From: Boothiomyces macroporosus | Lineage: Eukaryota > Chytridiomycota > Chytridiomycetes > Rhizophydiales > Terramycetaceae | DNA length: 64,000 nt | Reading direction: 5' to 3' | Assembly: GCA_027604185.1 (NCBI GenBank) | Contig: JADGKB010000075.1 | Coordinates: 1-64,000, forward strand | In this document: positions 1 to 64,000 of the stretch, one piece after another | How the letters are laid out: every line of letters starts with the position of its first letter | Position numbering within the stretch: position 1 is the first letter of the stretch | Program-made: the position numbers and the translations under genes | Notes under the pieces: generated by a model | Seen by the model: only the letters and a program-made list of their open reading frames with translations | Told to the model about the DNA's origin: nothing | The model's database searches: none

Positions 1-213
1 TGCTCGATACACTGAAGGTTTTTAGAACCCAGCAAGCGGCGCTTTTTACGAAATTGAGTTGATTATTTATATGGAGTGAAGCAACGAGCTTGTTTCACAA
101 CATCTACTAAATTAAACTTTCAACCAATCATAATATTTATTATATCGCTCCACAGGTATAAAGCAACTCAGTCACTCTTAACTTGCGAGAAATTGCCAGT
201 CCACGATCTAGGA
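1..213. other. window edge, no gene assigned
   Basis: This stretch lies beyond the stop codon of the TTC12-like gene. The only open frame on the plus strand has no recognisable similarity and antisenses the last exon of that gene. It may hold the 3' flank of a gene outside the window. Confidence 0.5.
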
Positions 214-2428
214 TTAATTTCGGTTACCGTTCTTGCAGAGTCGCGCACACAAGATTGCCAAATTCTTTTTGATTTCTTTGGATTGGCAAGTACGCAAGCA
301 TTCCACAACTAATTCAAACAGCCCAATGTCTATCAACTCATCCAAATTCGATTCTTTGTTATTTTAAGCTTACCATTTTGCGCACAAACTGACAGGGATA
401 AAGCCAAGTTTCCTATAATTCGAGAATAAAGAGCTTGGTCTTTTGTGCATTGAGCAAGCAGGGTGGTTAATACGCCAAGCCCTCCGCTTTTGACAAAATA
501 TTGTACGTTTGCTGGGGATGATTTCAAGAAAACTGCTAGGATTTGAGACCAATCTCCAACAAGATCCTTTGACCCTTCATCGACTCCTGCTTCAAGTACA
601 TTTCGGCAGCGTTGCCAATCTAGTTGAATCAAGTATGGATTAATTTCATTCAAATTGTAGTGGGACAATCTGTTGAATATTTTCAAACATAAATCATGGT
701 GATCATTGCGGCCAAGCAATCTGCATAGTAGAGCCATAAACTTTGTAGTTTTAAAGATCTTGTCATGTTTTCTTTTAGTTTGGAACAAGATGTTATGGAT
801 ACTAGCTAATCCGATGGCGATATTACCAGGAGTTTGTCGATCTTTGTCCACCCTTGATACGATCAACAGGATAATTTCATCGGCAAGATTATAAATCACC
901 GACTTTAATTTGATATTTTCTAGTTTTGATAACAAGAATATCAATTCAAGAACAATACCGTCTGGATTTGATTTTGAGCGATCGAGAATGTGTTTCAATA
1001 GCCATTCAGCAGAAATCTGGTATCTTTCTTCCAATTCAAAACTGTTTTTGCAAACTGAAAGTAAAAACTTCAAGTAGCTATCAGAGTATGTTCCACTCAG
1101 TCCTGCTTTTACGAGCTCTCCTAGTTGTTTTGTGAAATCTTTTAATCTGGATATTTCATTTACCAGTATTTGATGTTGACTAATGAACGTAAACAATTTG
1201 GAAGCTACAGCTTGTTTAGATTGGTTTGCCAGCATCAATAGGGTAATTCGTTTCAAATTCTCTCCAAATTCCCGTATATTCTCATTGCAATCTACACATG
1301 CTTCTAGGAGAATATCAATCCACCTCTCGTCGATATTTGAATTATAGTTGATTAGACTTTGAAATCCTCCAAGTAAACGGAAGGCGTGCTTCATACTGGT
1401 GTGTGATTTCAGCATAACTATAATATTTGAAGTAATTTTATCAAGTTCTTTGCCATTCTTGTGGGTATTTTCTGTATAGGTCTTTAGTAATTGTCCTAGC
1501 AACTCGGAAGATGGATCCTTGAGCAATTCTCCAGCCTCTTGCATTTCAATTTCTTGATCTACCTTTAAAAGCTGGACTTCTCTCGCCTGTTCTTTACACA
1601 CCCTTAAGGAAACCTGTTTCTGCAATTCAGGCTTTTCTTCCAAAATGCGAATACACTCCTTTAGAGAAAGTAAGCAATCAGGGAATAGCTTTAGCGATCT
1701 TTGACATTGAGATTGTCTATATAGGGACTTTACATTGTACGGGTCATGGGCGATACAATCAGCACAATCCTGTAACGATTTTTCAAAGTCGCCCAGTTTG
1801 AAATATACCAAAGCGCGGTTGCTGTACAAAACTGGATCCACAGGTATAGGAGATGGAGCTAGAAGGCTGTCCAAGAACTTGAAAGGATCATTGGGGTTTT
1901 GTTTTGGAACAAGCTCAATTGAAGGTGACTTTGAGGTTTCTATTGCTTCTGTAAAATACTTTAATGAAGATTCAAAGTTGTGTTTCGCGAATTCTTCCTT
2001 GCCAAGCAGTCTTGCTTTATTTACTGCAGCCTGAACGATTTTTTGGTGCGCTCCTTTAGATTCAACTTTTGCTGGTGCTTTTGTTTCTTTTGGTTTTGCA
2101 GGTTCAATTTTTGGAGATGGTGGAGGACTGTCTTCCTTGATCTCGCTCCACTTCGCGTAGTCTAGCTTTCCATTTGATACAGATTTGATTTTTTCGACTG
2201 GTTTTGCTTCAGATTTGATTTCTTCTGCTGGGCTTGGAATTAAAGGCGGCTGATCAATCGACAGTGACTTGCTTTCTACTGGCTTTGGTTTTGGAAGGTC
2301 AGCTTCCTTGTGCTTTCCAGACAAGATATCATTCATTTTAGACGCTAAGTTAAATACATAGTACTGAAATCATCGACAAACTCTTCAAATTCTCCAATCT
2401 CTTGATTTAGACTCTCCAGAGGATCCAT
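214..2428 (-). CDS. TPR-armadillo co-chaperone, TTC12-like (dynein assembly factor)
   Basis: Predicted 716 aa, close to human TTC12 (about 705 aa), with the same order: acidic/proline-rich N-terminus, three TPR helices pairs (about residues 125-270) and a helical armadillo-like C-terminal half. TTC12 and its relatives act with HSP90/HSP70 in cytoplasmic pre-assembly of axonemal dyneins. Two introns are needed: 2345-2364 (20 nt), which joins the upstream start MDPLESL to the main frame, and 330-373 (44 nt), which replaces a premature stop by a leucine-rich last exon ending ARLCKNGNRN. A start at 2336 is possible if the first intron is wrong. UNC45, SPAG1 or RPAP3 relatives are alternatives, since the TPR block is shared. 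A TTC12-type protein implies a motile flagellum in the life cycle (inference). Confidence 0.68.
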
Positions 2429-3888: not shown

Positions 3889-3932
3889 AACTGTCGTGAA
3901 AATGTAATAATGTATTGTAACTATCAGTGAAT

Positions 3933-4251: not shown

Positions 4252-4329
4252 TTGTTTTTTTCAAATTGAAAAAGTTTACATTCCAAAATGGAGGAAAGCA
4301 CACCAAGAATTTAAAAAAATCTTTTGCAT

Positions 4330-5175: not shown

Positions 5176-5278
5176 TAAACTCGAAAAGATTTCTGAACTG
5201 AACTTAAGGGCTAAGCCACCGGGTATGTAAAAGACAATAGAATCCAAGTCAAGGGATTTTGAGCATGTTAAAATATAT

Positions 5279-11201: not shown

Positions 11202-11763
11202 CTATTCAATAGGCCGGTTCATTCTTGCTTGCTCTCTTATTCTTCTGTCATATGCTGCCCTGTCCTTCTTGAATAGTGTGTACGCATCGCTGTGAGCTGG
11301 CGAAAGAGCTACAGTTAGCATCTCTTACGATTAGGATCATTTAGCAAATCTTGAATTCCAAGTAAAATCTGTTTAACAGTAATTGCTGGCTTCCAATCCT
11401 GCTCTTCATTTACAATTGATAAACAAACAGTTCCTGACGGATAAACATTTGGACTGGTTAGTAAAAAGAATACTGGAATAGCGGTGGAGTAAATACACAT
11501 TTAGGAGGTTTTTGCTGCTATTAGAATTTCAATTACTGGATATTCATCAGGAAACAAAAGCTTCAATTTGAAAACTCCTCCTTCCCAGTCTGTTCCTTGT
11601 TTCCCTGGGATGCCTACCAACCATGTTTTGAGATTAATCGTATTATTTTCCTTTTCTGGTCTTGCCCAAAAGCCAAAGGCTAATTTAGTATTTATTTACG
11701 GTGATCTTTTCTCCACTGTTTTCTTTCTTCAGTAAGTCGTTGTGTGCAAATCGAGATTGACAT
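11202..11763 (-). CDS. UBC9: SUMO-conjugating enzyme E2 UBC9
   Basis: Predicted 159 aa, the family length, assembled from five exons. Conserved blocks appear in order: [61 protein letters not shown], then the active-site cysteine in [34 protein letters not shown] and the C-terminal helix [20 protein letters not shown]9 transfers SUMO to lysines in the nucleus. The four introns are 11680-11699 (20 nt), 11515-11536 (22 nt), 11454-11473 (20 nt) and 11309-11328 (20 nt). Every junction falls exactly inside conserved sequence, such as TTC CA|T CCA for Phe-His-Pro. This is one of the best proofs of the 20-nt introns. Confidence 0.95.
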
Positions 11764-12006: not shown

Positions 12007-12857
12007 ATGTGGAGAATCAAGTTCAATAGAATTCATTTCAGATCAATCTCAAGCCATGAATGTATCCTTGAGCGTTTGAAGGGAGACGAAGCCGGAATTG
12101 TCAAGCTCACTTTTTACCGACCAAAAGCAAAGAATGCCTTGGGATCCAATCTATTGAACGAATTCAGAGCACATTTGCAAACGCTCAGAACTGATTCATC
12201 CGCTAGGGTTGTCATTGTTAACAGTGCGGTTGAAGGAGTATTTTGTGCTGGAGCTGATTTGAAAGAAAGAGCTACAATGACACCAGAACAGGTATCTGCC
12301 TTTGTGCATTCATTAAGAGCTTCATTCACGGAATTTGAAGTAAATGAAACCTAATCTAGGAATTGCCTATGCCAACTATTGCTGCAATCGATGGATTCGC
12401 CCTTGGAGGTGGAGGGGAGTTAGCATTAGCCGCTGATATTCGTATTGCTGGTGAAAAAGCAAAGATTGGATTCCCAGAAACTAATCTTGCAATTATTCCC
12501 GGAGCTGGGGGTACTCAGCGATTGCCTAGACTAATCGGTGTCCCAAAAGCGAAAGAGCTGATCTTTACTGGTGCCATTCTAGACTCAAAACAAGCTTTGC
12601 AAGTTGGCTTAGTAAACAAGGCAGTTGATGCCTCTGCTTTACCAGCAAGTATTGAATTTGCAAAGGGATTGTTGAACAAAGGACCTATCGCCTTACAGAT
12701 GGCAAAGCTTGCAATCAATCATGGATCTCAGCTTGATTTGGCTAATGGAATGGTGTTTGAAAAAGCTTGTTATGCCCAAGTTATCCCTACTCAAGATCGT
12801 TTGGAAGGATTACAAGCATTCAAAGAAAAAAGGGCTCCTGTCTACAAGGGCAAATAA
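12007..12857 (+). CDS. mitochondrial enoyl-CoA hydratase (AUH / methylglutaconyl-CoA hydratase type)
   Basis: Predicted 276 aa with a basic, serine-rich N-terminus ([16 protein letters not shown]) fitting a mitochondrial presequence. Crotonase motifs are present: [10 protein letters not shown] (oxyanion hole), [20 protein letters not shown] and [13 protein letters not shown], with the AUH-like tail [20 protein letters not shown] hydrates 3-methylglutaconyl-CoA in leucine degradation. One 20-nt intron, 12340-12359 (GTAAATGAAACCTAATCTAG), joins FTEFE to [12 protein letters not shown], restoring the uninterrupted [11 protein letters not shown] block of the family. Confidence 0.9.
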
Positions 12858-12892: not shown

Positions 12893-13473
12893 TTATTTCC
12901 ATATATCTTCATATTGCCTAAACAGCGGTCTCAAAGACTCGGCTTCCTTGCCCATTTCTTCAAAAGTGCGGGCAACTCTTAATGAATCCGGCACAATCTT
13001 TTTCAATGGTTTATGTTCTGAATCTTTGGAAATAACGGTTCCCAGCTCTGCTTCTTTGAGATCAATTTCTTGGTAAATGTCATCATTGTTCATCCAATCC
13101 CCCCTGTGCCTTGGAATCAAGTGAATATGGACATGCGGTACAGATTGGCCTGCAGCTTCACCATCCTTGGTTAATATCGCTGTACTTGGATTGTAATTGT
13201 CATTGAATCAGCATTGTGCACCTTTTCTAATTGCTTGGCAATGATCTGTGCGGATTGAAACATATCAGATACTTCATCCATAGTCAATTGGTTGAATCTG
13301 GCGACTACTCTCCTGCTGATAATCAGTACATCTACATTAAAACATATATACGGCCAGGAACGACTGGCTTCAGATTGACTAATCCAAGCGATAATTTGGA
13401 GTTGAAAAATCTGTTTTAATTCCAGTTACATTTCACTTGAGCTGATTTGCCAAGGTCCAAAAAGAAATTTCAT
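12893..13473 (-). CDS. bis(5'-adenosyl)-triphosphatase FHIT
   Basis: Predicted 173 aa. The histidine triad is HVHIHLIPR (HxHxHxx), preceded by QDGEAAGQSVP, and the start MKFLFGPWQIS matches FHIT's N-terminus. FHIT hydrolyses Ap3A. Three introns, 13411-13429 (19 nt), 13332-13351 (20 nt) and 13166-13185 (20 nt), rebuild the family blocks VNLKPVVPGHVLI and MTITIQDGEAAGQ; in the second, C|AT recreates the conserved His of PGH. No part of this gene except its last exon is visible as a single open frame. Confidence 0.92.
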
Positions 13474-13620: not shown

Positions 13621-15820
13621 CTATTTCTTTTTCATATGGTCAACAGTATTTCTTTTGTAAGAATCCCATTTCAGCTTTTCCAAGAATCCTTCCTGAACTT
13701 GCCGCACAGATATTTCATATAGATTCTTTTGCTGCACAGTTTCTACAAGCATGTCTGGGGATGCATATTTAATATAATCTGACCTAGCAATGCTTGCCAC
13801 TTCAATTCTGGAGGTCGCTGTGACCGAAAATTCCAAGATTGTCGCGTCAAAATCAGTTTCACTGGTTAGAGCAGCTCGTTCAAGGTCAATCTGATTCAGC
13901 TTTTTCGTTTCAGGATTAATTCCTGGGAAATGATCAGAGGTTTCCAATTCTTGTATGGTAAATGTGTGTTCTATTATTTCATCGTTTGGGCCCATTGGCA
14001 CACTCGGTTCATATATCGCGATATCTTTACCACCACTGCCCTTCTTTTGGATAAAGGGAACTTTCTTTGTACACTTGCAATGCCCTTCTAAAATAAAGTA
14101 TATTTTTGTTTCCGCCTGTCCTTCAGTTAAAATGGCATCTCCTGTTGAGTAAACTAGTATTTCAAATAATGGATTTGTTTTTGCCAAAAAGTCTTTGTAT
14201 TTGGTAAAGTGTGGTAACCTTGATAGTGAATCCATTTGATCCTGCAATTCTTCTTTTGTTAGGAGCTGAGTCATCTATGTCAAAAATAGACTACATTTGC
14301 AAATTCACCTAAAATCAGGAATATACTTACGTTTATCTATTACCAACAATTCTGTGGGGGCTAGTGTTGCTTTAGATGCCATTCTGATGTCACTTATGAG
14401 TTGGATTCGTCCAAAACTTTCTCCCGCATTCAATACATTCACCCATGTTAATAAATATTACCCTATCTCTTTCGCCGTGTTTTAATGTGAATATTTCAAT
14501 CTTGCCACTTAGTATGAAATAATAATTTTGAGCCCTTTGTCCTTCCTTGCAGATCAGTCTTCCTTCTGGAAAAGATTCATACTTTGAGTTAGTCTGTATT
14601 TACTTGCATTACTTTACAAAGTTTCATCCTCCTGTCCAAGCTAAACTGCGAGTAGCTCTTTACCCTGAACTTTAACAGTTGGTCAATGGTATTGATGATT
14701 TCTCGAGTTCGATTCACATTTGGATCTAGCAGTTGAGTGAGCTTGGTTAGAGTTAATATGCCTTTTTTGAAAATACTGGGTCCGCAGTGGTTTTAAACAT
14801 TTGCATCATAAATGCCATTTGTCCCCCAGCACTTAGCGGTAAATCAAGTACCTTTTGCATTGCTTTATAGTGTAGCGAATAGCTTTTGATGAGATTGACC
14901 CCCAGCTTTGCATAGCACAGCATTATTCTCCAATTTGGATACATTTTTCCCTCCCAGGTACGTCCAGTCTGTTTTGCTTTATTTTTGTTTTTTACAACAG
15001 CTCTCATAGGGTTTTCAGTAACTTGCGGTTTAACTGGAGTTGCTCTAACGGTTTTTCTAGATAATAGCCCTCCTTCCAGTGAAGTTGAATTTTCGTCAAA
15101 GTTCTCGAGTACTTTTAGTGTTTTTGCAGTCATCCTGCCGATTCCTGTAATAGTTTTTCTGGTTCCTCCTAGATTAATCGGCTCCTCTGAAATAACTTCT
15201 TCGTCTTTCTTTGGTGGAATAGCAGAGAACCTTCTTGGTGTATCCAGCAACGGTTCTGCCAATTTTTCATTTCTTCTGCTTCGCAAACTTGTACCATCTG
15301 CAGTTCCAGGTTTGGGAATAATATCCACCAACCCTCTTTTCTTTTTCGATACATCTTCATCCTCATCTTCATCCGTTAACACTATTCTTGCAGGTATTTT
15401 CGTCCTAAAAGACATTTCCGGATCTTTTCGCAATATAGATTCTCCTTCTTTATTTGGATTGGCAATTCTTGGTTTCTCTCTCTTGGAAATTACTGATTCA
15501 GAGTCTGCTGCTCTCCTAGATATTTGTGGTAAAGAGTCCGCCTGGAAGTCGTCGTTTTCCATCATATCTGTGATTTTTTGAGCCCTCATTTTTTGCTTCT
15601 GAGCTAAGATTAGCCTTTGGTTACATGATAATGAATCATTTCCTTCCTTATTTCTTGATTTCGAATCCAATTCCAAGCTAGTTGTCGCATTGTCGATAAT
15701 CGGTAATTCCGTTCGAGGTTTCTCCTTCCCAGGCGGGCCCCGCCGCAATGATTGTTCTTTATCTGTCCCTCTTGCTCCAGCTCTTCGTAGTGATGGACCG
15801 TCTGGGTCTATTTGGCTCAT
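13621..15820 (-). CDS. cyclic-nucleotide-binding domain protein, CNBD2-like
   Basis: Six exons, about 461 aa after... the spliced frame totals 693 codons: a long disordered basic/acidic N-terminal region (348 codons) followed by helices and a cyclic-nucleotide-binding fold (YYFILSGKIEIFTL, ESFGRIQLIS, LLVIDKREF) and a second, diverged CNB-like region (IYFILEGHCKCTKK). Introns: 14742-14776 (35 nt), 14582-14603 (22), 14421-14442 (22), 14309-14330 (22) and 14275-14294 (20). Between the last two lies a 14-nt exon (14295-14308) coding the EFAN of DKREFANM. CNBD2 is a sperm/flagellum protein in animals, so a flagellar role is possible here (inference). The total of the exon lengths is a multiple of three and no stops remain. 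Confidence 0.66.
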
Positions 15821-15963: not shown

Positions 15964-17454
15964 TTATTTTTTAATTTGATTGGAGGATTCGCTGATAAAA
16001 CCTTGAAGCGCTCTGTTCATTCCAACAAACCCAGCCTTCAATTGTCCTGCAAGCTGCTCTGCCGTTTGCGTAATTGGAAGCTTTACTATATTTGAATCAC
16101 TTTTTTTCAGCGTTGGGTCCAAAAACAGTTCAAATCTCTGTAGCACGTCCTGCATTTCAGTTTGAATAGATTTGGCCTTGATAGTTAGTGCAGGACCGGA
16201 ATATGATGAATTTTCAATTGATTCTATCTTTGAAATTATGTTGAAAAGCGATTCTTTTATGTGGCCCAGAGTTTCAATGGTAACTTTATCTTCAACTTTT
16301 GGAAAGTTTTCGCCTTCAACTGAATTGATAATCGAATTCGTATACTGCTCTCTTAGTTCTTTAGCTTGTGAAATGAGTTCAGGGATGCTTTTTTGTGGAG
16401 GAGAGAACTTCATCAATTTCTGAAGTAGGTGATTGTAGTCTGAAGATAGAACTATATTAGCACGATTGTACGATCACTCCGGCTGTCAATTAGAATAGAT
16501 ACTGCAAACCACTCAGCTATCGAAAAGTTGCCGTCAGCAAGCAATCCATCCCATAGCAGTAGGACAGAAGAAATTTCAAACTCTCGACAAAACAGTAATC
16601 TAAACCAACGACTATGGTTAATTCAATTTACATTCCAAACAGTTGGGGTTCAATTTCCAAGAGATTCATATGGCGATACAATTCATAATCCACAATCTTC
16701 AAATATTCCATAACATTTCGACAGGTCTGCATTATTGGCATTATCGTGACTTCCTTACTTGGAGGAGATACTTCATACCAACCTTTTACGTTCCTCATTA
16801 GGTTAAAAAACAAAATAGATACATCTGCCTCAATGAATTTTTCATTGAAATATTCTCCTAGATTTGAATATAAATTCGAATCTTCTTCCACCACCAGAAA
16901 CACGATGGCGACCAACTCATGCATCCCTAAATTAACTTTTGTCAACCTTGTCGGTAAGAAATGTTAGAATTCATCTTGGACCACACAAATAGTACCGTTT
17001 CTAAAATATCACGGACTTTTGGATCATGAAAGCGGGGATTTTCTGGAAATCTATACTTAATACAAACAAACGTTCGACACACGTCCTGAGAGATTGTTTT
17101 TTTCAATTCGCTATCTTGAAATGATTGCTTCCAAACATTCTAAAATTAATCTTATCCATACATCATCTTCCTGCGATAGCGGGTTATTTAGTTCGAGATT
17201 ATCCTTTATTGATCGAGGATCAAATACAAACTTTTCCTTCAGTTCAAAGAAACATTGGCGCTCCTTATCCAGGAATTTCAAAAGGCAGTCCTCATCAGTT
17301 GTATTTGGAAGAATATCCAGAAAGAACTATGTCAATAAACAAAAACTTTCCAGTACATGCTCCGGAATGCTTTGATCTCTCCCGTCATTGCATCATTTTT
17401 CTTTTCTAAAGCGTTTTTTCTCAGGAATTGCTTGAATTGCTCTTCCACTGCCAT
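15964..17454 (-). CDS. TBC-domain Rab GTPase-activating protein, TBC1D5-like
   Basis: Seven exons, 364 aa or more (365 codons in the last five exons plus 91 upstream, about 455 aa in total). Conserved TBC elements: MYWKFFLDILP at the start of the domain, the arginine finger in QDVCRTFPENPRF, the glutamine finger in YRQGMHELVA, then EPQLFGIRWFRLLFCREFE. TBC1D5 acts on Rab7 with retromer. Introns: 17327-17346 (20), 17140-17161 (22), 17051-17071 (21), 16927-16946 (20), 16612-16631 (20) and 16452-16471 (20). The 21-nt intron has no stop in frame and is recognised because it interrupts the arginine finger motif. The retained version would add seven residues. Confidence 0.85.
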
Positions 17455-31853: not shown

Positions 31854-31917
31854 TTCGATTGTGAGTTGTAAACAAATCTACCCTATTGTGCGAATATAAT
31901 GGGGAGTAAACAAATAA

Positions 31918-36488: not shown

Positions 36489-39700
<3,212 letters not shown>

Positions 39701-45734: not shown

Positions 45735-48397
45735 TTATTTCGTATAGTCATATAGATCCAAGAATGAATCCGTCACAGAGTTCGCTGGCGGTTTCTCATT
45801 GACATTTATGGTGTCCAAAGCGTCTGCAAACCCAGATCCAAAATTGTCAAGGGAAATACTCAATTCCTTTTGTAGTTCACGCTGAGCATAGTTCTGTGAT
45901 TGTAACAGTGCTTGGATTTTGGAGTTTGAGGGTGGTGTTTGGGTATTTGGCATTTGAGGAATGTAAGGTGATAGCGAGACTGGCGTTCCTGACAACGGCG
46001 CTGGGGTCTTTGGTACTAGCTCAGTTTGAATCTTCAATGGTGTGTTTAAAGGATTCAATAATTTCTCTACTGCGGCACTGTCCAACAATTTCACCACTGT
46101 GATTTTAATGAATGGATTGACATAAGCATAACCAAGCTTGATTAATCGGAAAATACCTTTTGAATAAACAGCCGAAGGATTATTCTAGCTGCAGCCAGTC
46201 TGATTTCTCGTCTTTCGTGATACAATCCGTAGGCAAAGGGCAAGCATGAGCCATCAGATGAAGTCAAATATGAAAGAATTTCGACCAACTGGGCGTCAGA
46301 TGCTTCTTGGACAATTTGATCCAAAACCAAAAACGTTTTCATAAACTTGTCAGAGTTTGAGGAAGAAGGGAATTGCAAATCGTGAATTAGCGCTTGTACA
46401 TCAATATAGTAGAATAAGGATTTTCTAAATCTCATACCGCGCTAACGTTATACCCGATTACCTGTTTGAGATAATTGTAAGAGTTGGTGCGAATCCATCC
46501 TTCTGCCCTATTGGACCATATTGGTTGGAGTTCGTTCAATTTAGTATTAAGGGAGTATCTTCCAACCATTTCTACAAATCTTTCTACATATTGATACAGG
46601 ATTTGCCTGATGTGATTTTCTTCAACGTGTCTCTTGAGACCCTCAAACACCTAGCATTAATTGTAAATACCGATTGCACCAATTGCTCATCTTCCAAGCA
46701 AAATGGTGCTGTATCTGGAGAAACCTCTTTGGTGGAGTCTGTTTGCGCTTGTTTTATCAGCAGTGGGCTAATAGTCATCTTGCCAGTGTTCAAATTAATA
46801 CATAAATCCCACCATGCAGATTGTTCTTCAAACACAGGATTAGTCACTCCAGCAATAAAGCCAGGCTCTGATAAAAGAATTTCAATATTTGCCAAACTGG
46901 CGTATGGGTAGCACCTATTTACTACGCCAGGTAACAAGTCACCTCCAGAAGCCAATGCTATACAAGACAGAACGCAATTATTGACTTCTTTGCAAGGCTT
47001 TCCGTGACCGACAAATATAATTCTCTTTTCAGAAATCAAAGCAAATATCAGGATCAACAATGGGTGTGTGGTTGGCCCAACGTCCAAGTGGGGATGCCAG
47101 CAAAATGGCACGTTGTTTTTCGATCTGATACCCTGATTAACATTGCTAATCTGCATATTGCTGATTAAATTCATTAGGGAAACCATTGAAAACTAGTTTA
47201 AATTCAAATTACATCTCCAATTTCGCTTTCATACGCAACCATTGGCAATTTCAAAGGAAGAGTAACTCCGCTATACTTTATGGGAAGTTCAAATTCCAGC
47301 TGTGTATCTGTCAATTTCAGAGATGGATCTTTTGTTATTATCAAGTACCTTCTGGATCATAATAATCCAAGTTTGGCAAGATTTTACTAAAATCATTGTC
47401 TAAATGGGCAACTTTGTTTCTCAAAAATGATCTGATTGTTTTCCTTTCAGAAAATGTCAACATTGGTAGTTTCTGAAGCTCGAACGACTGTAGTGCTTCA
47501 TATACTTCTTTAAGAATCTCTAACGAGGGGTTGTTGAAGAATTTATCCAAAGCTAACAATATCACTGGCTGCGGTTAAATGTGGTTACTCTAAATACATG
47601 GACCCATGGTTTCCTAAATGCAATCGCAATAGACTTTAATCTAGCGCCTCTTCTTGCACCGGCTATTTGTCGCGTACCTACAATATTGAGGACATAGAGC
47701 AATGGAGGTGTTATACAGTAACTGTGGGCTAAGATTTCCAATTCTTGGTCAACCATAAGTACCTCGAGGAAATGTTTCATTTACTTTTTCAATTTTAGCA
47801 AACATTGTCAAGAATTCAGTGCAATAGACTCTGTCATCAACAGTCCCGAATCTTATGGCTAACATTCAATACCATAGTTACCAATCTGAGGGCTCAAAAG
47901 TGGAAATAACAGTAAATTAGTATCCGCATAGTGACAGACTTGATTCGATATTTGCCTTTTTAAAGATTAAATACCATGATTGAAGCAGCTCTCCTTTGGC
48001 ACACAATTTTAGCTGTGAACTAGTAAATTCGACAATTTGGTCCTCGTTATCCGAAACTGCACTCCATTCTGTGTGAGTTGAAGCCTACCTCCGTCATTGG
48101 TAAATACGGTTCCAGCGATTGATAACTTTAACTGTTTATTATCGATTAAGATTGAATTTGACCGCTTCATTGATCCCTTGTTAATAAGAAATACTTTTTT
48201 TCTGTTCAATAGGAAGAATGAATAATCCTCTTGGTGTAGGTGAGATCCTTCAGGAATCATTAGTTCCGCAAGTAACCTGATATTAGATTAGTTTGGAACC
48301 CGTAGTCCTCCGTTGGAATATTTTCCGGATACTGGAATGAAAAACTGGATCCTTTGTCGATATCAAACTCTGCTGCGAGTATGTACTCTATAGACAT
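45735..48397 (-). CDS. DENN-domain polarity protein, Afi1/MesA-like (SPA domain)
   Basis: Predicted 812 aa in twelve exons. The DENN/SPA core reads TTHPLLILIFALISEKRIIF, LSCIALASGGDLLPG and AGVTNPVFEEQSAWWDLCI, and upstream the docking region has GARRGARLKSIAIAFRKPW and KYSGVTLPLKLPMV. Afi1/MesA binds Arf3/Arf6 and marks polarity axes. Introns: 48277-48299 (23), 48069-48088 (20), 47956-47974 (19), 47859-47881 (23), 47744-47762 (19), 47569-47588, 47329-47348, 47193-47212, 46651-46670, 46442-46461 and 46137-46156 (all 20). Exon phases add up across all twelve exons. Read as raw DNA it looks like half a dozen unrelated ORFs. Confidence 0.86.
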
Positions 48398-48429: not shown

Positions 48430-50515
48430 ATGTCAATCTTGCAGTTTGAACCTTTCAGCTCCCAAATAGATGGAACTTTTTGGGAAAAGCTGGGAAAGCT
48501 AAAGATTGATTATTACAAGTTGGATGACAGTGAAAAGGAGATTTATGGATACTACCGCGGTGGTGAGAGGGCAAACGACTCAGTAACTGCTTTACCAGCA
48601 AGGCTATTCCTCTCATCAGGTTCGTTTGATAAGGAGCATGCTTCATTTTCAGTGGTTAGTCCTGGGATATTGAAAAACACAAACACGTTGAACGAATTCA
48701 AAGATCTGGACAAGAACGCATTTCTAAAGAACGCTTCTTCAAAGATTTGGGAAGCAATTAAAGATGGATCTGTGATTGATCAACCTCAACTACTAGTCCA
48801 ATTTGGATTGATCACATTTGCGGATCTGAAAAAGTACAAGTACTACTACTGGTTCAACTTTCCCTGTTTACTTCCAAAGAATCCATTCACGTACACCAAA
48901 TCTCAATACTTGCCGGAAATTTATTCTGAATCACAGTTGGATCAGCTCAAGCAGGCATTCCATGATTTTTATGACAAGGCGCCAAACTGCAATTTCTTTT
49001 TGTACAAATCAAATGGGCATGTATTTGGAAAGCTGAATGAATGGTCCACGTTTTGGTCAAATACAAAAGATGATCAAGTAAGTTGGATTAATCTAGATTA
49101 CAGTTGGTTTCGTTGACCCGTCAGCGTCTGACTTTCCTGGCTGGCCACTTCGAAATTTCTTGTTGGCACTCCAGCATATTTACAAGTTGAATCAAGTTAA
49201 AGTGTTATGTTACAGAGAATCGTTAAGATCACAATCGATCAATTCAAGTTTACTGATCCAAGTTAAAATGGCCCCAGGAATTATTGGTGCTTTATATTAA
49301 TTCTAGATTCATTTCCAGAGTTTATCGGATGGGAAAAGGGAGTCAAAGGACAACTCACTCCTAGAATGGCAAATTTAGCAGCATTAATGGATCCGAAACA
49401 GTACTTTTTGTTAATTCCAGGTTAGCTGACACTGCTGTTGATTTGAATTTAAAACTAATGAGATGGAGGATATTACCAGAATTACAATTAGAAAGCATTT
49501 CATCGAAAAAATGCCTATTATTGGGTGCTGGTACATTAGGTTGTTATGTAGCTAGGCTGTTAATGGTTTTTAAGTTTTAATACAGGCATGGGGCGTGAGA
49601 CACATCACATTTGTAGATAATGGAAAAGTATCTTACTCAAACCCAGTAAGACAGCCTTTGTTTACGTTTGAAGATTGCTTGGATGGTGGTTTACCAAAAG
49701 CAAAGGCAGCAGCAAAAAGACTGTCTGAAGTGTTTCCTGGTGTTAAAGCAGCAGGTTATGATGTTAGTATTCCAATGCCTGGCCATTTGGTCGATGCTGA
49801 AATCGTTACGAGAGCAAATGTCGAAAAATTGGAACAGATGGTTGAAGACCATGATGTTGTATTTTTGTTGACGGATTCACGAGAAAGCAGATGGCTGCCT
49901 ACTGTAATTGGGGCAAAGTATAAAAAGATTGTTATCAACACAGCTCTGGGATTTGATTCTTTTCTGGTGATGAGGCATGGAATGCGAGAAATTGGTGAAA
50001 ATGTTGATACACGGTTAGGGTGTTATTTCTGTAATGATGTTGTCGCACCAGTTGATGTAATTTGTGTTAATCATAGTCTCTCACCGATCGTACTTTGGAT
50101 CAGCAATGTACAGTAACTAGACCAGGGCTTTCAGCCGTAGCTGCTGGCTTGGCGGTAGAATTATTAGCATCTATATGCAATCATCCTGAAGGGTAATTTA
50201 TGCTAATATAGACCATGGGCACCTGCAGACCAGAATGTCAGTGTATCAGATAGTGCCAATTCAACAGTTCTAGGTGTCCTTCCGCATCAAATCAGAGGGT
50301 TCCTTTCACACTTTCAGAACCTTGTTCTGGTTGGAGCGGGCTATAATAAATGCTCCGCATGCTCAGACCCGGTGTTGCAGCAGTATGAACAAGATGGAAT
50401 AGACTTTTTGATAAAGGCAATGAAGGATTCAAACTACCTAGAAAAAGTAGCGGGCTTGGACCAAATGAAGATGGAAAGTGAAAATATCGATGTAGATTGG
50501 GATGAAGACATGTAA
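48430..50515 (+). CDS. ATG7: ubiquitin-like-activating enzyme ATG7
   Basis: Predicted 655 aa in seven exons. Motifs: [40 protein letters not shown], the nucleotide loop [57 protein letters not shown], the catalytic cysteine in [10 protein letters not shown] and [17 protein letters not shown]7 activates Atg8 and Atg12 for autophagy. Introns: 49078-49096 (19), 49287-49306 (20), 49401-49420 (20), 49566-49585 (20), 50057-50076 (20) and 50193-50211 (19). It starts 32 bp from the divergent Afi1-like gene. Confidence 0.95.
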
Positions 50516-51514: not shown

Positions 51515-53789
51515 TTATGCCTTCAGTTTTTCCAGGTTTTTCAGTAATCTTTGGCGTCGATCGACAGAGTCTAGATTGATGCCAATATCATTCCACCTTA
51601 CAGCACTGGGAGTTTGCATCACAAACATATTTGAGAGCAACGACTTGTTTGGAGTCGGGTGGTTTTTTAGAGAAATATCCTCCTCATCCTCAGTGTAATC
51701 AATTGTTGGGTATGGAGATGGTTTAGGAGAGGCCTTTTCCCCACTTGCAGACATACTACTGATCGCACTTTGCCCAAAAGAAAAGGATTCTGCTTCCACC
51801 ACACAGTGCGAAGCTTGAGGTGTAAACTTTACTGGTTCAATTCCTTTCTGCATTTGTTCCTTTAAGCGGGCTTTGGCGTCATCTATCTTTGGGGTACTTT
51901 GTTAGTTCAGTATTACTTTAATATTTCAGTCAAATTTCTCATAATTGGCGAAAATAGTTGGTATTTGGTGGTATTCTGGCCAAATTTACACAGCTCGAGA
52001 TACATTATAGCACTAGTGGAATATTTTTGCGAATAATACACATGCAAATCGTGGTAAAACATACCCAAGTATCCATACATTACATGCGGATTAGATCCCC
52101 TAATCTCATTCAACATTGGGGGGAATGTCTTGACACTAAACAATGTCTTGTACAATATGTTCCCCGGCACATCTGTTCCTTGAGTCGCAACGACATACTT
52201 CCAAAAGTTTGAAGCGTCCAAAGTTGGTTCCCAGTTTGATTTTAAGCAACACAGTAAAAATTCAGAAAAGGTTTTGGGTTCATGTACCTTTAGAATAGTT
52301 GCTTGTCTTTCAAGCAGTAATAGCGCAACAAATGATTCCAAATCTACCACTGAAACAGTTTTTTTCATATCAACTTGGTTTTTCCTCGGTGAATTGGGTT
52401 TGTATCGAAGAGGAATATTTGGAAACAATTTTTGTAACCATTTCCTAAGGTTTCCATTCAAGTAATTGAAAAATGCGAGGGAAACAATCGTTTTCAAGTT
52501 CCAAGGATTGCTTAGAATGAAAGCTTCGACAGTTTCATAGTAATTGTACTTTTGGAGTAGCTGCGATACATCTTTGGAAATCTTGGGATCCCATTTGCCA
52601 GTAACAATTCCAGATCTGATATCATAAGTCAGTTTTTCATTATAAACTAATTCATTCTTGAATATAGCATCGCAATCAACAGCAAGCAACAAATAGTAAA
52701 GGTTTTGAATGCACTCGACTACTCGATAGTCAGGAATAGTAGGAACATCTATTTTAATTTAAGATTACACTCTACACTGAATGAAAGAGATTCAATCACT
52801 TGCTTGATTTCAATGGGAGAATTCAATCCTGCCTGGATACCATGTAGCGCTTTAAATAGTTCCAATTTTGCTGTCATTTCCTGTCTAACATTCAATAGCA
52901 TGTGCAAATCGCCAGACATTTCAAGTGCGGCGATTTCACCTTCCAATTCTTTAATTGAATCTGCTACAAACCTAATTTAATCCCTCTAATACCATTTATC
53001 TCTAATTGACAACCGAGTTTGCTCGCCTTTAATTTTCAACGCAAGAACTTGGTTATCTTTGTCTGACTTGATCAACAAATGTGCCCGTTGTAACCAATCT
53101 TTATCGTCACGAAATATCTCGATATTTTTAGTGATATAAGTCACCAGCTGCCCGCCTTTTGCAAAATTGAGATAATTCAAATGCAATTCGGGGTGCTGGT
53201 AACTTTCTTTTTGATTGATTATTTGCGCGAATTCATCAACGATTCTATCATTGCTGAATTTTATTGCTGATAGTTGCATTAACCGGGTGAATATATGAAA
53301 TATTTGTGTAATTTTTCTACTCAGTTTGGTGATTTCTATAATTCCAACAGTCAATTCTGAAATATCTCTATATCCATTTGGAATATAACCTAATTCCGCA
53401 GCTTTACAGAGTATCTCGGCCCGTTGCAGCTCTAGCTGGACATCCTTGTTTACAGCAAACAGCCTACAATTAAAGCGAGATACTGCTTCTGTAACTCCAA
53501 CGCTTTTTCTATAGTTTCTCCAGTAATGTTTGATTGAGGATTAGAGTAAACATCCAGCAACAACGATTTCGCTTGATAATTATCCGGAAAGTGCTTTAAA
53601 TATTCTGTCAGGTGCTTTTCAGCTAACTGGTAATTCTTTTGGTTGAATTCCTTGATACCATGTGATAACAGTAAACCAGGAACCTGGATTAGTAGCAGTT
53701 ACTATTAATTGCTTTTTTCTTATTTGATCTGGGGTAAAAGGGATTTTTGTAGTTGGTTTTGGGGAAACGAGATTACTAAACAAAGACAT
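51515..53789 (-). CDS. RANBP2/Nup358 N-terminal-domain-like TPR nucleoporin
   Basis: Predicted 723 aa in six exons. The start MSLFSNLVSPKPTTKIPFTPDQIRK leads into helical TPR-like sequence (NYQLAEKHLTEYLKHFPDN). In the middle, NLRKWLQKLFPNIP ... SVVDLESFVALLLLERQ ... NFWKYVVATQGTDVPGNI matches in order the RANBP2 region GIRKWLKQLFHHLP ... CILDLEVFLLGVVYTS ... SWWDAVCTL...AVPGNV. The C-terminus is short (…TPSAVRWNDIG…NLEKLKA); Ran-binding, zinc-finger and E3 domains are absent. Introns: 53684-53702 (19), 53445-53467 (23), 52972-52992 (21), 52749-52768 (20) and 51897-51916 (20). The similarity is recalled, not computed. Confidence 0.55.
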
Positions 53790-55244: not shown

Positions 55245-55269
55245 ACCATAGATGTTTCTTCATTATCAA

Positions 55270-56547: not shown

Positions 56548-58948
56548 TTATTTTGCTAGTGAGGCCAAATATTCTTCGTGAAGCTTAACTTGCCTGTCAA
56601 ACTCTTTTTTCAATCCCTTTTTCTTTGACTTTGAAACTTCAACTCCATCTTTATCCTTGGTTGGAAGTCCTTGTTCGTCCCACTCAGAGTATTCCGCAGT
56701 TTTGAATAGTTCTGAAGGAGGTGTTTTCCCTTTCTCCAATCTTTCTGCCAGACGGGCAGCTTCGGCAGCAATTCTTTCTTGCTTTTCACGCAGCTTTTGA
56801 GCTTCTTTTTCAAGCTTTTCGTTCCTTTGCTGTTGAAGAATGTTCCTATCCACCAATTTGATCAAGGCTTTACCATCTATATTTAAAAAGTAGTTACCTT
56901 CACGATCTTCCAAAGAAATACCGTGCTCTATCAAATCTTCATCACGCAATTTATCACAGAGAGCCAAGATATTCTTTGGGTCTGCTTTTTCTTGAGCAAG
57001 CTTACGCACACTATCTCTGAAAGTAGACATTGTTTGCAAAACTGGCAACAGAATTTCATCTCGCTAATTATTAGTAATAAATTACGTTAGATGAGGATTT
57101 AGTGGAGCCGAATGAGCCAATAACAGGATTATTATCTTCAAACACACCAAAGGTGGTTAAAATCTTGGTGATATAAGTAGCAACTTTGTTCAAGACCATT
57201 GCATTTGGTTTGAGTTTGCTCTTTTGCTTTTCGTTGTAGTATGTGTTGCCTTGTGTTATAAGCGCTCTAATTTCTGCCATTGCTCCAGGGGTGTTGAAAG
57301 AATCAGCCAAAGCTGCTCGAACTCCGTGTTGTTTTTCAGCCAAGGCTTTCAACAACGCGGCTTCTGCAGGACCATAGTTATGTTTACCGGTTGATTCTCT
57401 AGATTCAAACTTTTGCTCTTGCACCACAGCTTTTACCGTTGCCAAAAAGTTTTGAATTGCATTTTCTACGGTTTTGGCTTCATTCAAAGAGCCACTGCTG
57501 TAGTCTAATACAGCATTCCATTGATGCAACAAAAACATGATACGAATTTGAGCTGCCGAATTTGATTTCAAAGCTTCTTTGATAGTAATGAAATTTTTCA
57601 AACTTTTGGACATCTTCAAGTTTTCAATGTGCAAATGCCCAGCGTGTAAAAAGTAATTCACCCATTGCTTGCAATTATAGTGAGCCTGAGAATCAATTCA
57701 TAATTACTTCAGCTTGCGCAAGTTCATTGTCATGGTGAGGGAAGGCCAAATCAATGCCTCCAGTATGGATATCCATCTTATCACCCAATATTTCACTTGC
57801 CATGACGGAACATTCAATATGCCACCCTGGGCGGCCCTGAAATTAGAAAAGAGTACTTTTCCCCAAGGTGAATCCCAAGCAGGCTCTCCAGGTTTGGAGT
57901 TTTTCCATAATGCAAAGTCGAATGGAGTGCGTTTTCCTGTACTATCGGCCAGCTCACCCTCTTCATCTTCGATAAGTTTTGCATTTCCAGCAGACCAAGG
58001 CTGTAGTTTTGCATAGGCGTGACCTTCTGCTTTGCTGAACTTTGAAGTGTCAAAGTATACTGACCCTTTTGCCTCGTAGGCATATCCATTAGCAATAATT
58101 TTTTCAACATAAGTTACAATTTCGGGAACATATTCACTTACTCTGACCAGCACGTCAGGTCTTTTGACATTCAATGTATCCATGTCATTGAAATAGTCTT
58201 CTTCCCAATATGCAGCAAAATCTCTGAAAATTTGAGGATCGGTAACTGTGTTTGAAAACTTGTCAGCAAGAATTTACCTGAGAATCCAACCACAACGATA
58301 AAACATCCTGAGTTCCGTTGTAAAACTTTTCAAGATCAATCTTTCCTTCCTTTCCACTAGTAATTGATTCCAACGCAGATTGCTTTGTTAATGAAAATGT
58401 ACTGCAGTCTTCAAATACAATCCAAACTTTGGATTTTCCGTTGCTTCCTTGGACCTCGGGGCTTCTGCAACAAACAAATCCCAGTTAGCCAATGGGTTTT
58501 GCCCGTCCTTTCCAAATCGCTTGTTGACGTAAAACTCAAATGCCTCATTGACTTTGCTCACTAGCTGTTCATTGAGAACTGGATTTTCCTTCTTGAATTT
58601 GTTGAACAAGTAGTGCTGGCGGGCGTTGACGATAATCTGGTTAATCACTGCCTTACTTTATCATCGATATCCGTAATGTTTAGGACATACAACACATCAA
58701 ATTTGAAGAAATCTTCCATAATCCTACGAATGATATCAAAAGTAATGTAATTTCTAGTTAGCGAAAGCGCACCTGGCATGCCCCAAATGGGAGTTGTTGT
58801 AAACTGTTGGCCCACAGCTGTACCATCCAACTTGGTTCCCTGTTTCCGGAATAAACTCTTCCTTCTTTCTGGTCATTGAATTGAAGACATGTAACTTTGG
58901 AACTGGAGTTCCTTGTGGTTTGAACCAGTGGGGTTGTTTGTTTGACAT
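56548..58948 (-). CDS. cysteinyl-tRNA synthetase
   Basis: Predicted 752 aa in eight exons. HIGH-type motif in [21 protein letters not shown], zinc ligands in [10 protein letters not shown] and [12 protein letters not shown], and KMSKSLKNF; the long insertion and the Lys/Glu-rich C-terminal extension are typical of eukaryotic cytosolic CysRS. Introns: 58754-58772 (19), 58637-58656 (20), 58383-58402 (20), 58259-58277 (19), 57837-57856 (20), 57686-57707 (22) and 57064-57085 (22). All junctions fall in conserved sequence, for example GHAR|NYITF and [14 protein letters not shown]. An upstream open frame lacks an ATG, so no mitochondrial form is predicted. Confidence 0.95.
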
Positions 58949-60685: not shown

Positions 60686-60786
60686 TTTAAATATGGAAAG
60701 AATTTCTCACCTTGAATCATATCCACCCCAGCGAAATCAGTGTGTGAATTGGCGAAAATAATTTTATTGAGTTACAAGTAGTGATT

Positions 60787-63700
60787 TCATTCTTTGTTCT
60801 CTGAAGTAGGATCTTGCGCTTTGTTGGCTTCTGGCTTTATGTTTTCATTGATCGGTTCTTCAGGAAGTAGTTCGATTTGACTAAATCCAGGTGAAGGAAG
60901 ATGCAAGCTCAATTGTGGCACATTAGACAGGTGTGGCCGCAGATTTGCTTCCGCATTCGCTGCAATGCTTGGGTTTGAAACTGACTGTGATTGCATGCCA
61001 CTCTCTGCCTCCAACGATTGTGCACCAGATGATTGATCGTTACTTTGAACTTTTGTTTCTTCATTTATGTCTGGGACAGAGGTTACTTTAATCACAATTT
61101 CTGTATTTTCAGGTGATTCCGCTTCCTTCTTGCCCTTTTTGTGAATTGAAGTGTTGGAACCATGATGTTTCTTTACCCCAAGCCCATGGTGGGCATGCAG
61201 CCCCTTGGTTTCCAAGTTTCCATGCAGGTCACCGTGGCCCCTACTTGGTATTCTAAATACCTGCTTAAACCCAGATAAAAAGTTATCCGATCTTGAGTTA
61301 GGTATTGCCAAGGTCGAGTTTTCTTCAGGTGCTGAATCCGCTGGTATCTGATCATTGGAAGGTGGTACAGAGGATAGCTTTCGAGCCCCACCATCTAGAG
61401 CTTGCTCAACACTTTCCGGGTTTCCTAAAGCTGAATTCGCTGAATTGTTTGGTGTGCTGGTTGGTTTTACATTCGGTTGGATACCAAATACAGTCTGGAA
61501 TGATCTGGACAAGTTTCGAAGTTTTGGAACCAAAGAAGGCTGTCTCTTTTTCATTTTTGGAACAGCATTCTCTTCAATCACATCCAATATCGCCCTTCTT
61601 GGTGTAATAATATCTTGCATACCTTCATCTTGAGAGAAGGCGAATCCATTATTTGTCACTTCTTTGCAGTTGGCGCCCATATACACCAAACTACCAGCTC
61701 TATGTGGTTTATGTTTGGATTCTAAATGTGGCAAGTGCTTGTTGAAATATTGACTCGCCCTTTGGACCCTGTGTTTGAAGTCAGACGACTTGTGTATCGA
61801 TTTCTTTCGGCCAGCTGATAGAGTTTTATGCCGTGGGACTACATCACCTTTAGGAGAAACAAAGCCGTCCAGAGGATGGTCTTCCTTTTCAACTACGATG
61901 GCAGGCAAATTTTCATGCGATCTAGTGACATGCTCTCTATCCACACTATCTTGTACTGGAAGTTTCACTGCTTGCGGACTAAGTGCTTCGATTTCTTGTA
62001 TGGTTGACTTGATATACTGTGTTTCTTGAAGTAAATCTGTATCAGATGGATAAAGAAGTTGTTGAACGTACTTGATTACAGCTCTTGGGATCAAACTGGT
62101 GATAACCACCAGTAACATTGATGCCCAAAATCCCACTGTTGATATAAATATTTGAAAAATTCCATAAATTGGAGAGTCTACTGACAGCGAATACAAACCA
62201 AGATATAGCGTCCATGCCGCAATTGAAAAGTACAGCGAAAAGTGGGTCAGCCAAGACCAACTATACCAGTTCGCAGACCCGTATACATTGATAATAATAA
62301 TTGCTGAAAACGCCATCAATGTTCCAACGTTTGCAGCACCTTCCTCTAATCCTTGTGGTATTAGTGAGGTTTCGCTAACAATGTAAATTACTCCAAAATA
62401 ACATATGATGGACTGAAATATTGCATGAAAGCAATAAATCCAAAACCTTTCTGCAGTGTAAAGTTCCTGGCGAATTCCTTTGAGGTAAATTTCAGGTATT
62501 AACATAGATATCGTCGCGTTGATATCCTGGTCAAACATTCCTATGAAAATTGTTGGCAGAAAAGTGAATATCGTATTAAAGTACATTGAGTAAGTGACAT
62601 CCATAGCCAATCCAGAGGAAAACCTTCAATTAACGCGACTTACCCACAATAGAATTGGTCCCAGAACAGTATAAACAACCAAATGATGTTTTTGTAAAAG
62701 TAATTGAGAGCTAGCTCAGCACAGCGCATATAAGCCCACCTTCCATGCACCAATAACAGCTTTGTCAAAAATCGAAACTGAGATATAGCATAATCGCTCG
62801 CCATTACTGCTTGAAGACCTTCCTTCCCACTTATCCCAATCCCAATATTTGCTTCTTGAATCATAGACACATCATTTGCGCCATCGCCAATAGCTAAACA
62901 CATTGCTCCCTAAATAAATCGCAAAATACCAATCCCTCTCTTACTAATTTTACTACCATCGCTTTTTGAAGGGGGCTAACCCTACAGCACAACACAGCTT
63001 TGCATCGACAGCCCAACTCTAGAAATAAATCTTTGCATGGCGATGCAAGAGCGAATTTTAAGGAATTGCCATCAATCACAGTTGCCATCCCTGTTGAATT
63101 TTTATATTCACCAGTAAGCTTCGGATGTCCCTTTTCGTCCCAAAAGCGCATTAAGGCTTCTTTCAGTTGATCAAATGTATCTTGAGGGCTCGAAGATTGA
63201 ATGACAATCAACACCATTGATTTTTGCAATAAATTACAAGAAAATCCAATATTAATAGCAGTTTCGACCTTGTCTCCCTAATATTTAAAGAAAACTACTG
63301 TCAAGACCCATAGTTTAATTCCTGCCTTTGCCAGAGTTGCGATCGCGTCTGGAACTCCATCTTGAAGCTTATCTTCAATTGCAGTCGCTCCAATCAAAAT
63401 CAAATTCTGCTCCATTCGGTTTGCAATCAAGTCACATTCTATTTCTCTATTTTCAATCAAAGCTTGAGCAGTCCTATATTTTTCATTCCACTCTTGGTAG
63501 TCATCTTCCGAGATTACCCTATATGCAAGACACAATGTACGTAAGCCTTGTGTTAATAATACACTACCATTGTTTGCAAAGGCTGCCAAATGCTGACTGG
63601 TGGTGTCAATCAGTTCTTGAGAGTTGCTTTTGTCAAGTCTCTCGTATATCACACTGTCTGCACCCTTGCAAAACAGCAATATTTCTCCTTCTGGTCTTCT

Positions 63701-64000
63701 TATAATTACACTCATTCTCTTTCTGTCTGAATTAAACTCCATAATATTTAGTACTGTATATGTTCTTGAAGCTCCCAGCATATCCACTTCAATTTTGTTG
63801 TCTGTCCGGTTCAAACATGCAAATCCTGCATTTTTGGCTGCAGAAACAAGAGCCGCTTCATCAGGAGATTGGGCTCGATATAGAATTTTGTTAGAGTCGC
63901 TTTCGGGCTTTTCTACCAGCACTGTGTGGCAAACTGCCAAGCAAGTGAAGAATTCTCTTATTTTCCTCCCTTGCTCTTGCTTTTCGTCAAGGTGAAGTGG
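60787..64000 (-). CDS. P4-type phospholipid flippase ATPase (5' part missing)
   Basis: Partial at the window end: about 930 codons (234 + 116 + 701 - reading downstream from 64000). Motifs: [52 protein letters not shown] and the C-terminal multi-TM part. The DKTGT phosphorylation site and first TM helices lie beyond the window. Introns: 63278-63298 (21), 62910-62929 (20) and 62624-62643 (20), which restore [19 protein letters not shown]. The long charged C-terminal tail (about 380 residues) after the last TM helix is unusual in length. P4-ATPases move aminophospholipids to the cytosolic leaflet at the Golgi or plasma membrane. Confidence 0.9.

Follow-up and report, generated by a model that had tools for sequence, protein, structure and literature searches.

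Can spliceosomal introns of only about 20 nucleotides (nt) be the usual kind in a fungal genome? The question is raised by a stretch of 64,000 nt (positions 1–64000 of one contig, hereafter the window) from a 15.2-Mb assembly of 216 contigs, whose genes can be read as conserved proteins once many such short segments are removed. Together with 20 further stretches of 10 kb each (contigs C1–C20), the window gives a sample of 264 kb from this one assembly. Judged from the sequence, the tiny introns are very probably spliceosomal, of the U2 type, and belong to a Boothiomyces-like chytrid in which introns have contracted, as far as the genome was sampled, to a module of 19–22 nt.

The source of the DNA is indicated by two housekeeping proteins with the near-identity expected within the genus Boothiomyces. 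The spliced TCP1 of the window is 99% identical to those of Boothiomyces sp. JEL0866 and JEL0838 and 90% identical to that of Globomyces pollinis-pini, while its CysRS is 99% identical to that of JEL0838 and 91% to that of JEL0866. As the window TCP1 is not the same as that of either strain, the source isolate is probably a third Boothiomyces-like one. Boothiomyces is a chytrid of the Rhizophydiales, family Terramycetaceae, a genus isolated on pollen from soil and water and maintained in culture (PMC11210171, PMC7537106). Because the host is a chytrid, this would be a fungal case of tiny introns.

Length distribution and tests against chance

Four tests resting on different assumptions concur in confirming the tiny introns. 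A bare motif (GT[AG]...CTAAY, then 0-6 nt, then AG), picked after the gene UBC9 had been read by eye, occurs 28 times at 19–22 nt on the two strands against 8.7 times in dinucleotide shuffles, and 13 times at exactly 20 nt against 2.6, with no similar excess at other lengths within 12–80 nt. A gene finder run on both strands and trained on long uninterrupted open reading frames (ORFs) was given end dinucleotides only, no motif and lengths of 10–120 nt; it called 57 GT–AG introns of 19–24 nt in the 264 kb, whereas 11 decoy dinucleotide pairs yielded 4–12. With splice-site matrices learned and all lengths from 12 to 300 nt weighted equally beforehand, 167 of 264 GT–AG introns had 19–24 nt and not one was shorter than 19 nt, as opposed to 3–16 introns of 19–24 nt for six decoy pairs. 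This enrichment of GT–AG over other ends (57 vs 4–12; 167 vs 3–16) is a mark of U2-type introns. When the lengths were learned as well, 280 of 307 GT–AG introns lay at 19–24 nt with a peak at 20, a peak that none of four decoy pairs produced. In a clean hold-out, with all parameters learned on the 20 other stretches and then applied to the window, the share at 19–24 nt was 40 of 62 introns under flat lengths and 61 of 69 under learned lengths; three decoy pairs gave 1, 1 and 3 (of 48–52 introns) and 2, 0 and 3 (of 37–46 introns), respectively.

The final joint set comprises 315 introns with a mode of 20 nt (18 nt, 2; 19 nt, 64; 20 nt, 129; 21 nt, 60; 22 nt, 23; 23 nt, 6; 24 nt, 1; longer, 30), so that most introns in the sample are shorter than 25 nt, the narrow class that marks tiny-intron lineages. 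The original prediction that nearly every intron of the genome measures 19–24 nt thus holds for the 264 kb sampled (283/315), and its extension to all 15.2 Mb goes beyond what this sample covers. The window contributes 77 of these introns (19 nt, 12; 20 nt, 40; 21 nt, 9; 22 nt, 5; 23 nt, 2; longer, 9); the remaining 238, 217 of them with 18–24 nt, come from the other stretches. Eleven further tiny introns were added in the window by eye or at relaxed thresholds (four in UBC9, two in RPB4, and single ones in TCP1, CysRS, SPT4, the gene at 3142 and the gene at 28134). The resulting 79 include 45 of exactly 20 nt. The earlier count of only three introns above 24 nt needs correcting: the finder makes nine longer calls in the window, of which three (28, 178 and 299 nt) appear by eye to be false joins of unrelated neighbouring genes, one (111 nt, in TCP1) has homology support and the others are candidates. 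A run at relaxed thresholds found more genes (43) and about the same number of introns (73).

Tiny introns are present in 19 of the 20 other stretches, and those of exactly 20 nt make up a larger share in the window (40/68) than elsewhere (89/217; chi-square p 0.015). With 285 tiny introns in 264 kb, the sample averages about 1.1 per kb; introns number 1.7 per kb of modelled coding sequence and interrupt 93 of 113 gene models. The finder's density is probably an underestimate, since UBC9 and several first exons escaped it.

Proteins restored by intron removal and models of relatives

The window genes whose proteins were compared with known families are the following, with intron lengths (nt) in brackets.

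TCP1 (CCT alpha), 40979..42824, plus strand: introns 41049-41069 (21), 41156-41175 (20), 41514-41624 (111), 42110-42129 (20), 42749-42769 (21)
CysRS, 56548..58948, minus strand: introns 58754-58772 (19), 58637-58656 (20), 58383-58402 (20), 58259-58277 (19), 57837-57856 (20), 57686-57707 (22), 57064-57085 (22), 56877-56897 (21)
UBC9, 11202..11763, minus strand: introns 11680-11699 (20), 11515-11536 (22), 11454-11473 (20), 11309-11328 (20); read by eye
ATG7, 48430..50515, plus strand: introns 49078-49096 (19), 49287-49306 (20), 49401-49420 (20), 49566-49585 (20), 50057-50076 (20), 50193-50211 (19)
Class I histone deacetylase (HDAC), 42912..44310, plus strand: introns 43451-43469 (19), 44173-44193 (21)
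Afi1-like protein (Pfam SPA), 45735..47805, minus strand: introns 47744-47762 (19), 47569-47588, 47329-47348, 47193-47212, 46651-46670, 46442-46461 and 46137-46156 (20 each); PF08616, E 2.5e-31
SPT4, 17629..18005, plus strand: intron 17853-17872 (20); PF06093, E 1.7e-33
RPB4, 44673..45008, plus strand: introns 44723-44742 (20), 44917-44935 (19); found at relaxed threshold, score 3.4; PF03874, E 4e-19
HIT-domain gene (FHIT-like), 12893..13431, minus strand: introns 13411-13429 (19), 13332-13351 (20), 13166-13185 (20); first exon incomplete; PF01230, E 1.4e-25
Thiolase, 36833..37807, plus strand: introns 37106-37125 (20), 37733-37754 (22); PF00108, PF02803
Enoyl-CoA hydratase, 12007..12857, plus strand: intron 12340-12359 (20); PF00378, E 5.4e-61

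Profiles for TCP1 and CysRS were built from the listed homologues minus Boothiomyces, and the score against them falls in 13 of 13 cases when a single intron is put back, each of the five TCP1 introns costing 10 to 1026 bits and each of the eight CysRS introns 13 to 1079 bits. The loss is 10–22 bits for the four introns whose length is a multiple of three and 230–1079 bits for the other nine. One of those four, the 111-nt TCP1 intron 41514-41624 with a GTAAGT donor, is the sole long intron that homology supports. The CysRS intron 58754-58772, at the HIGH-motif region, has 19 nt and a GTG donor.

The spliced UBC9 coding sequence of 480 nt matches the solved ubc9 chain 3rcz_B (E 9.5e-75) without a gap at any of the four junctions; a query short by one residue produced an alignment gap exactly at that place. 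The 22-nt UBC9 intron can alternatively be read as 19 nt (11518-11536), which adds one residue. The ATG7 product matches 4gsl_A (E 6e-139) and also 4gsk_A across residues 4-645 of 655, and the HDAC matches 4a69_A (E 5.6e-165), unbroken over the first junction in an alignment that ends before the second. All six spliced proteins given to Pfam (SPT4, RPB4, the HIT protein, the thiolase, the enoyl-CoA hydratase and the Afi1-like SPA protein) were recognised. Removal of the segments had been said to restore the frames of named genes, and it does so for TCP1, CysRS, UBC9, ATG7, SPT4, RPB4, the thiolase, the HIT protein and the Afi1-like protein.

Six publicly available gene models from relatives, the work of others, were aligned to the spliced TCP1 and CysRS of the window. 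The TCP1 models of JEL0866 and Globomyces pollinis-pini contain no gap of at least three residues; because models such as that of JEL0866 TCP1 fit removal, the tiny introns are probably already present in deposited annotation. The remaining four models have nine such gaps, six of them at a window intron site. The JEL0838 TCP1 model starts at codon 53, directly past the intron at codon 52, and has a surplus of five residues at codon 164, the site of the 111-nt intron (164.7). The CysRS model of the same strain lacks codons 59–68, a gap that opens at 58.7, at the intron of the HIGH-motif region. The JEL0866 CysRS model has three surplus residues at codon 58, adjoining the same intron, and its start, seen as a protein model only, resembles a read-through of that intron in the window from an ATG just upstream. 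The CysRS model of Globomyces sp. JEL0801 lacks codons 92–99 and 382–417, each gap opening at an intron (codons 91 and 381). Most simply read, predictors may have lengthened a tiny intron to reach their minimum length, so that, to go by these protein models, Globomyces would have tiny introns too. In practical terms, conserved stretches are missing or scrambled at tiny introns in some of the public models of these fungi, as with the HIGH-motif region of CysRS, which is lost or garbled in both public Boothiomyces models.

Intron anatomy, splicing machinery and competing explanations

The tiny introns share a compact plan, the general layout of donor and branch site being the same as in other fungi. 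The donor is GTA in about 90% of the 285, most commonly GTAATT (41) or GTAAAT (22), with GTAAGT in only 16; G is not preferred at +5 (44/285), and A, T and T are favoured at +4 to +6. About five unconserved nt separate the donor from a branch motif, TTAAY/CTAAY in 175 of 285 and a near variant in most of the rest, which lies near the 3' end and is complementary to GUAGUA of U2, as in U2-type introns. The branch A stands at position 14 in 107 introns and at 15 in 132, and the tail after it has 5 nt in 130 and 6 nt in 109 (239/285 for either pair), a fixed placement of the kind known for Stentor. The introns are 71% A/T.

The spread in length stems from two largely independent rulers, a loop of 14–16 nt and a tail of 4–7 nt. 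Among 261 introns within these bounds, the numbers predicted from independence and those observed are 5.7 and 1 at 18 nt, 59.0 and 61 at 19 nt, 107.6 and 122 at 20 nt, 70.3 and 55 at 21 nt, 17.1 and 20 at 22 nt, and 1.3 and 2 at 23 nt. The 25-nt stretch around 20-nt introns holds 13.9 bits (in-sample). On both strands of the 264 kb there are 1607 GT–AG 20-mers, and the uncalled ones that reach the median intron score number 10 (shuffles, 3.0), those that reach the 10th percentile 43 (shuffles, 15.6; both in-sample). Since few uncalled 20-mers score like introns, the module goes far towards marking introns.

Three candidate subclasses were considered and set aside. A U12-type donor is RTATCCTT, which the GTAATT-like donor does not fit. 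Selection for stop codons in the 21-nt class was suggested by in-frame stops in 48 of 60 introns against a mean of 42 of 60 in the other frames, a weak and detection-biased difference. A second class made up of long introns with GTAAGT donors was dropped, as +5G occurs in only 3 of 30 long calls, several of which look like false joins.

The genome carries the small nuclear RNA (snRNA) genes U1, U2, U4 and U6 that belong to U2-type splicing. U6 has an intact ACAGAGA and U2 an intact GTAGTA, the latter in two differing copies (L002 and L003) that have the 5' half in common and a strongly different 3' part; U1, with ATACTTACCTG, scores 68.8 bits, 0.7 bit under the cut-off of 69.5. A search for U6atac gave no match, but as the controls gave none either, this does not argue for its absence. 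Genes for SF1, U2AF65, Yju2, Isy1 and Cwc25 were also found. Splicing over the tiny introns raises the U2AF65 family score from 230.7 to 342.7 bits, the curated cut-off being 310.3; two of 14 control genomes also matched, under the cut-off. These genes are themselves interrupted, SF1 by introns of 24, 22 and 21 nt, U2AF65 by 19, 20, 19 and 19 nt, Cwc25 by 21 nt, a second Cir_N gene by 21, 19 and 20 nt, and Isy1 by 20, 20, 20, 19 and 20 nt plus one 46-nt call; the modelled part of Yju2 contains no tiny intron. The Cwc25 loci L039 (C49:2042-5152) and L040 (C100:3637-6747) are identical in 3111 of 3111 bases, a recent duplication or redundant contigs.

On such an intron, U1, covering positions 1–6, and SF1/U2, around positions 10–16, would sit adjacent with few bases between them, and U6 and U2 would then occupy almost the whole intron, an otherwise ordinary fungal spliceosome forming a lariat loop of 14–15 nt with a tail of 5 nt. 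As no polypyrimidine tract fits between the branch A and the AG, U2AF65 would bind elsewhere or count for less, and the whole 20-nt unit would be recognised by intron definition rather than through U2AF65 at that place. A G at +5 pairs with both U1 and U6, so its absence would cost one pair with each, for which the fixed geometry perhaps compensates.

Would such introns call for a specialised spliceosome? In the heterotrich ciliate Stentor coeruleus, Cwc25 lacks its Gly plug and the Isy1 N-terminus is unconserved, features that the authors link to space for the tight lariat (PMC9505925). A spliceosome with similarly altered active-site projections is an unlikely explanation here. In its favour, the Isy1 model aligns to solved ISY1 chains only from residue 37 in the best match (32 at the earliest among eight, range 32–41), and its N-terminus thus seems divergent, as in Stentor. 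Against it, the Cwc25 N-terminus MGGGDLNLKKSWHP has the Gly plug intact rather than lost as in Stentor, its alignment to solved CWC25 chains beginning at residue 1, and Yju2 aligns with its family from position 1. The Isy1 gene model is itself uncertain at exon 1, which lies beside an awkward double-intron stretch and may have been misread; this start (L037:1467–1506) can be parsed as two nearly abutting tiny introns or as one of about 39–41 nt.

That the tiny introns are one size class among many conventional introns of 60–300 nt overlooked by the finder is improbable. The 111-nt TCP1 intron, the 46-nt Isy1 call and some isolated longer calls with good branch sites point that way, but the flat-length finder made 75 GT–AG calls above 60 nt, below each of six decoys (109–158), and TCP1, CysRS, UBC9, ATG7 and HDAC jointly contain 24 tiny introns against one long. 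Removal at the DNA level or ribosome bypassing, in the manner of the internal eliminated sequences (IESs) of ciliates, is very hard to credit: short ciliate IESs are close to this length and end in TA repeats, whereas the segments here end in GT-AG and have TTAAY/CTAAY at a fixed distance alongside canonical snRNA sites. Their plan matches that of Stentor introns (PMC9505925). Assembly or sequencing indels, which assemblies do contain, have a negligible chance of accounting for inserts alike in length, GT-AG ends and branch motif that recur in the window and 19 of 20 other stretches and at several of which the public models of other strains break.

Several points weigh against reading the segments as a near-universal class of U2-type introns. 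Splicing itself is deduced from sequence and protein restoration. The finder takes GT–AG ends only and learns its own motif, so that other ends are missed, and it under-calls introns that lack stops and are a multiple of three nt long. One of the 20 other stretches, L009 (C4:20001-30000), has zero tiny introns called; it is also among the lowest of the stretches in G+C (0.358). When a removed TCP1 or CysRS segment is slid by as much as 6 nt, the score is mostly tied, and three of 13 removals gain 0.3–1.0 bit when shifted; homology therefore fixes the place of an intron to within a few nt, not each exact boundary. Loop and tail lengths, which hinge on the choice of the best branch 5-mer, are mildly non-independent (chi-square p 0.04). 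U5 snRNA gave no Rfam match and no control matched either, which makes that search uninformative. Three of the nine gaps in the relatives' models lie away from intron sites (the first 24 codons of JEL0838 CysRS, the first 54 of JEL0866 CysRS and three residues at the end of Globomyces sp. JEL0801 CysRS). The spliceosomal interpretation that had been proposed is supported by the GT-AG ends, the fixed branch site, the restoration of conserved proteins and the pairing sites in U1, U2 and U6, which are canonical. We are evenly divided over a wider proposal, in which an ordinary spliceosome, with its Cwc25 plug and U1/U2/U6 sites intact and no need of plug loss, would have 19–22-nt introns as its main substrate, the trait extending across a clade of at least Boothiomyces and Globomyces and silently corrupting public models.

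Comparison with known tiny introns and further genes of the window

The likeness to Stentor and nucleomorph introns drawn earlier is correct, and mikrocytid introns belong alongside. Stentor introns have 15–16 nt, a branch A at position 10 and a 5-nt tail (PMC9505925). The introns described here resemble them in forming a narrow, tiny GT-AG class with a GTAATT-like start (Stentor's commonest intron), a fixed branch A, a 5-nt tail and canonical U1, U2 and U6 pairing sites; they differ in their 19–22 nt, a loop of 14–15 nt rather than 10, a clear TTAAY/CTAAY motif, the retained Cwc25 plug and a fungal host, and also in interrupting 93 of 113 modelled genes as against 18% of genes in Stentor (PMC9505925). 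Chlorarachniophyte nucleomorph introns (18–21 bp; PMC10245619) have an equal size range and narrow spread, although the nucleomorph is a relic nucleus whereas the present genome is fungal and measures 15.2 Mb. Mikrocytids likewise have many introns in a very narrow tiny class (16–17 nt; PMC10245619), but unlike this fungus they are reduced rhizarian parasites with reduced spliceosomes.

Single introns nearly this short occur more widely, also in Encephalitozoon cuniculi, which has few introns. They measure 22–76 nt in E. cuniculi (PMC3629993) and about 25 nt, down to 23, in type B of Trichomonas (PMC12316389), where T. vaginalis has 63 active introns in total, unlike the roughly 1.1 tiny introns per kb sampled here. 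A survey of 644 fungal genomes terms a mean intron of 63 bp 'relatively short', and its excerpts mention nothing near 20 nt (PMC8476143). Among the matches listed from the open-licence literature there was no fungal genome with a narrow intron class near 20 nt; excerpts on Boothiomyces that mention introns hold no account of this fungus's introns, and those of chytrid genome papers give no intron lengths. The fungal tiny introns are best seen as an independent, convergent occurrence of a known type, not a new kind of intron.

Genomes with tiny introns have hitherto been known in ciliates, in the relic nuclei of algae and in parasitic mikrocytids; a culturable chytrid would add the kingdom to which yeasts belong, in which splicing lends itself well to testing. 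A lariat loop of 14–15 nt and the lack of a polypyrimidine tract put a hard geometric bound on any model in which U1, SF1, U2AF and U2 come together on an intron, and the intact Cwc25 plug argues against plug loss as a requirement for tiny introns. Introns near the smallest known, handled by seemingly ordinary machinery, offer a means of finding the lower size limit of what the spliceosome can process.

Further window genes have tiny introns called by the gene finder, with families assigned by eye where marked "-like" (lengths in nt).

Gene of no assigned family, 51515..53789, minus strand: introns 53684-53702 (19), 53464-53483 (20), 52972-52992 (21), 52749-52768 (20), 51897-51916 (20); finder only
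TBC-like, 15964..17454, minus strand: introns 17327-17346 (20), 17140-17161 (22), 16927-16946, 16612-16631 and 16452-16471 (20 each); low model score of 10
Cyclic-nucleotide-binding-like, 13621..15820, minus strand: introns 15604-15624 (21), 14594-14612 (19)
P-type ATPase-like, 60787..64000, minus strand: introns 63278-63298 (21), 62910-62929 (20), 62624-62643 (20)
Low-complexity protein, 37857..39700, minus strand: introns 39505-39524 (20), 38878-38896 (19), 37916-37935 (20)
TPR-like, 140..2428, minus strand: introns 2345-2364, 354-373 and 208-227 (20 each)
Hydrolase-like, 26620..27491, minus strand: introns 27213-27232 (20), 27004-27022 (19), 26722-26741 (20); model score 13
Basic protein, 45022..45692, minus strand: introns 45428-45447 (20), 45099-45119 (21)
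Tyrosinase-like, 31227..33363, plus strand: introns 32182-32201 (20), 32603-32624 (22)
AAA ATPase-like, 22639..23985, minus strand: introns 23568-23587 (20), 22948-22970 (23); a 185-nt call is unproven
Further single tiny introns, finder only: 6642-6660, 8817-8836, 18916-18938, 25582-25602, 40044-40063, 55673-55693, 60297-60315
Single tiny introns at relaxed threshold, finder only: 3261-3281, 29111-29131

The cyclic-nucleotide-binding-like gene includes two unproven longer calls of 35 nt (14742-14776) and 187 nt (14275-14461), and the tyrosinase-like gene was fused by the finder to an upstream acetyltransferase-like gene through a doubtful 178-nt intron. Elsewhere in the window, positions 54637-54759 hold a short ORF of tandem heptads of the MVEYYHK type.

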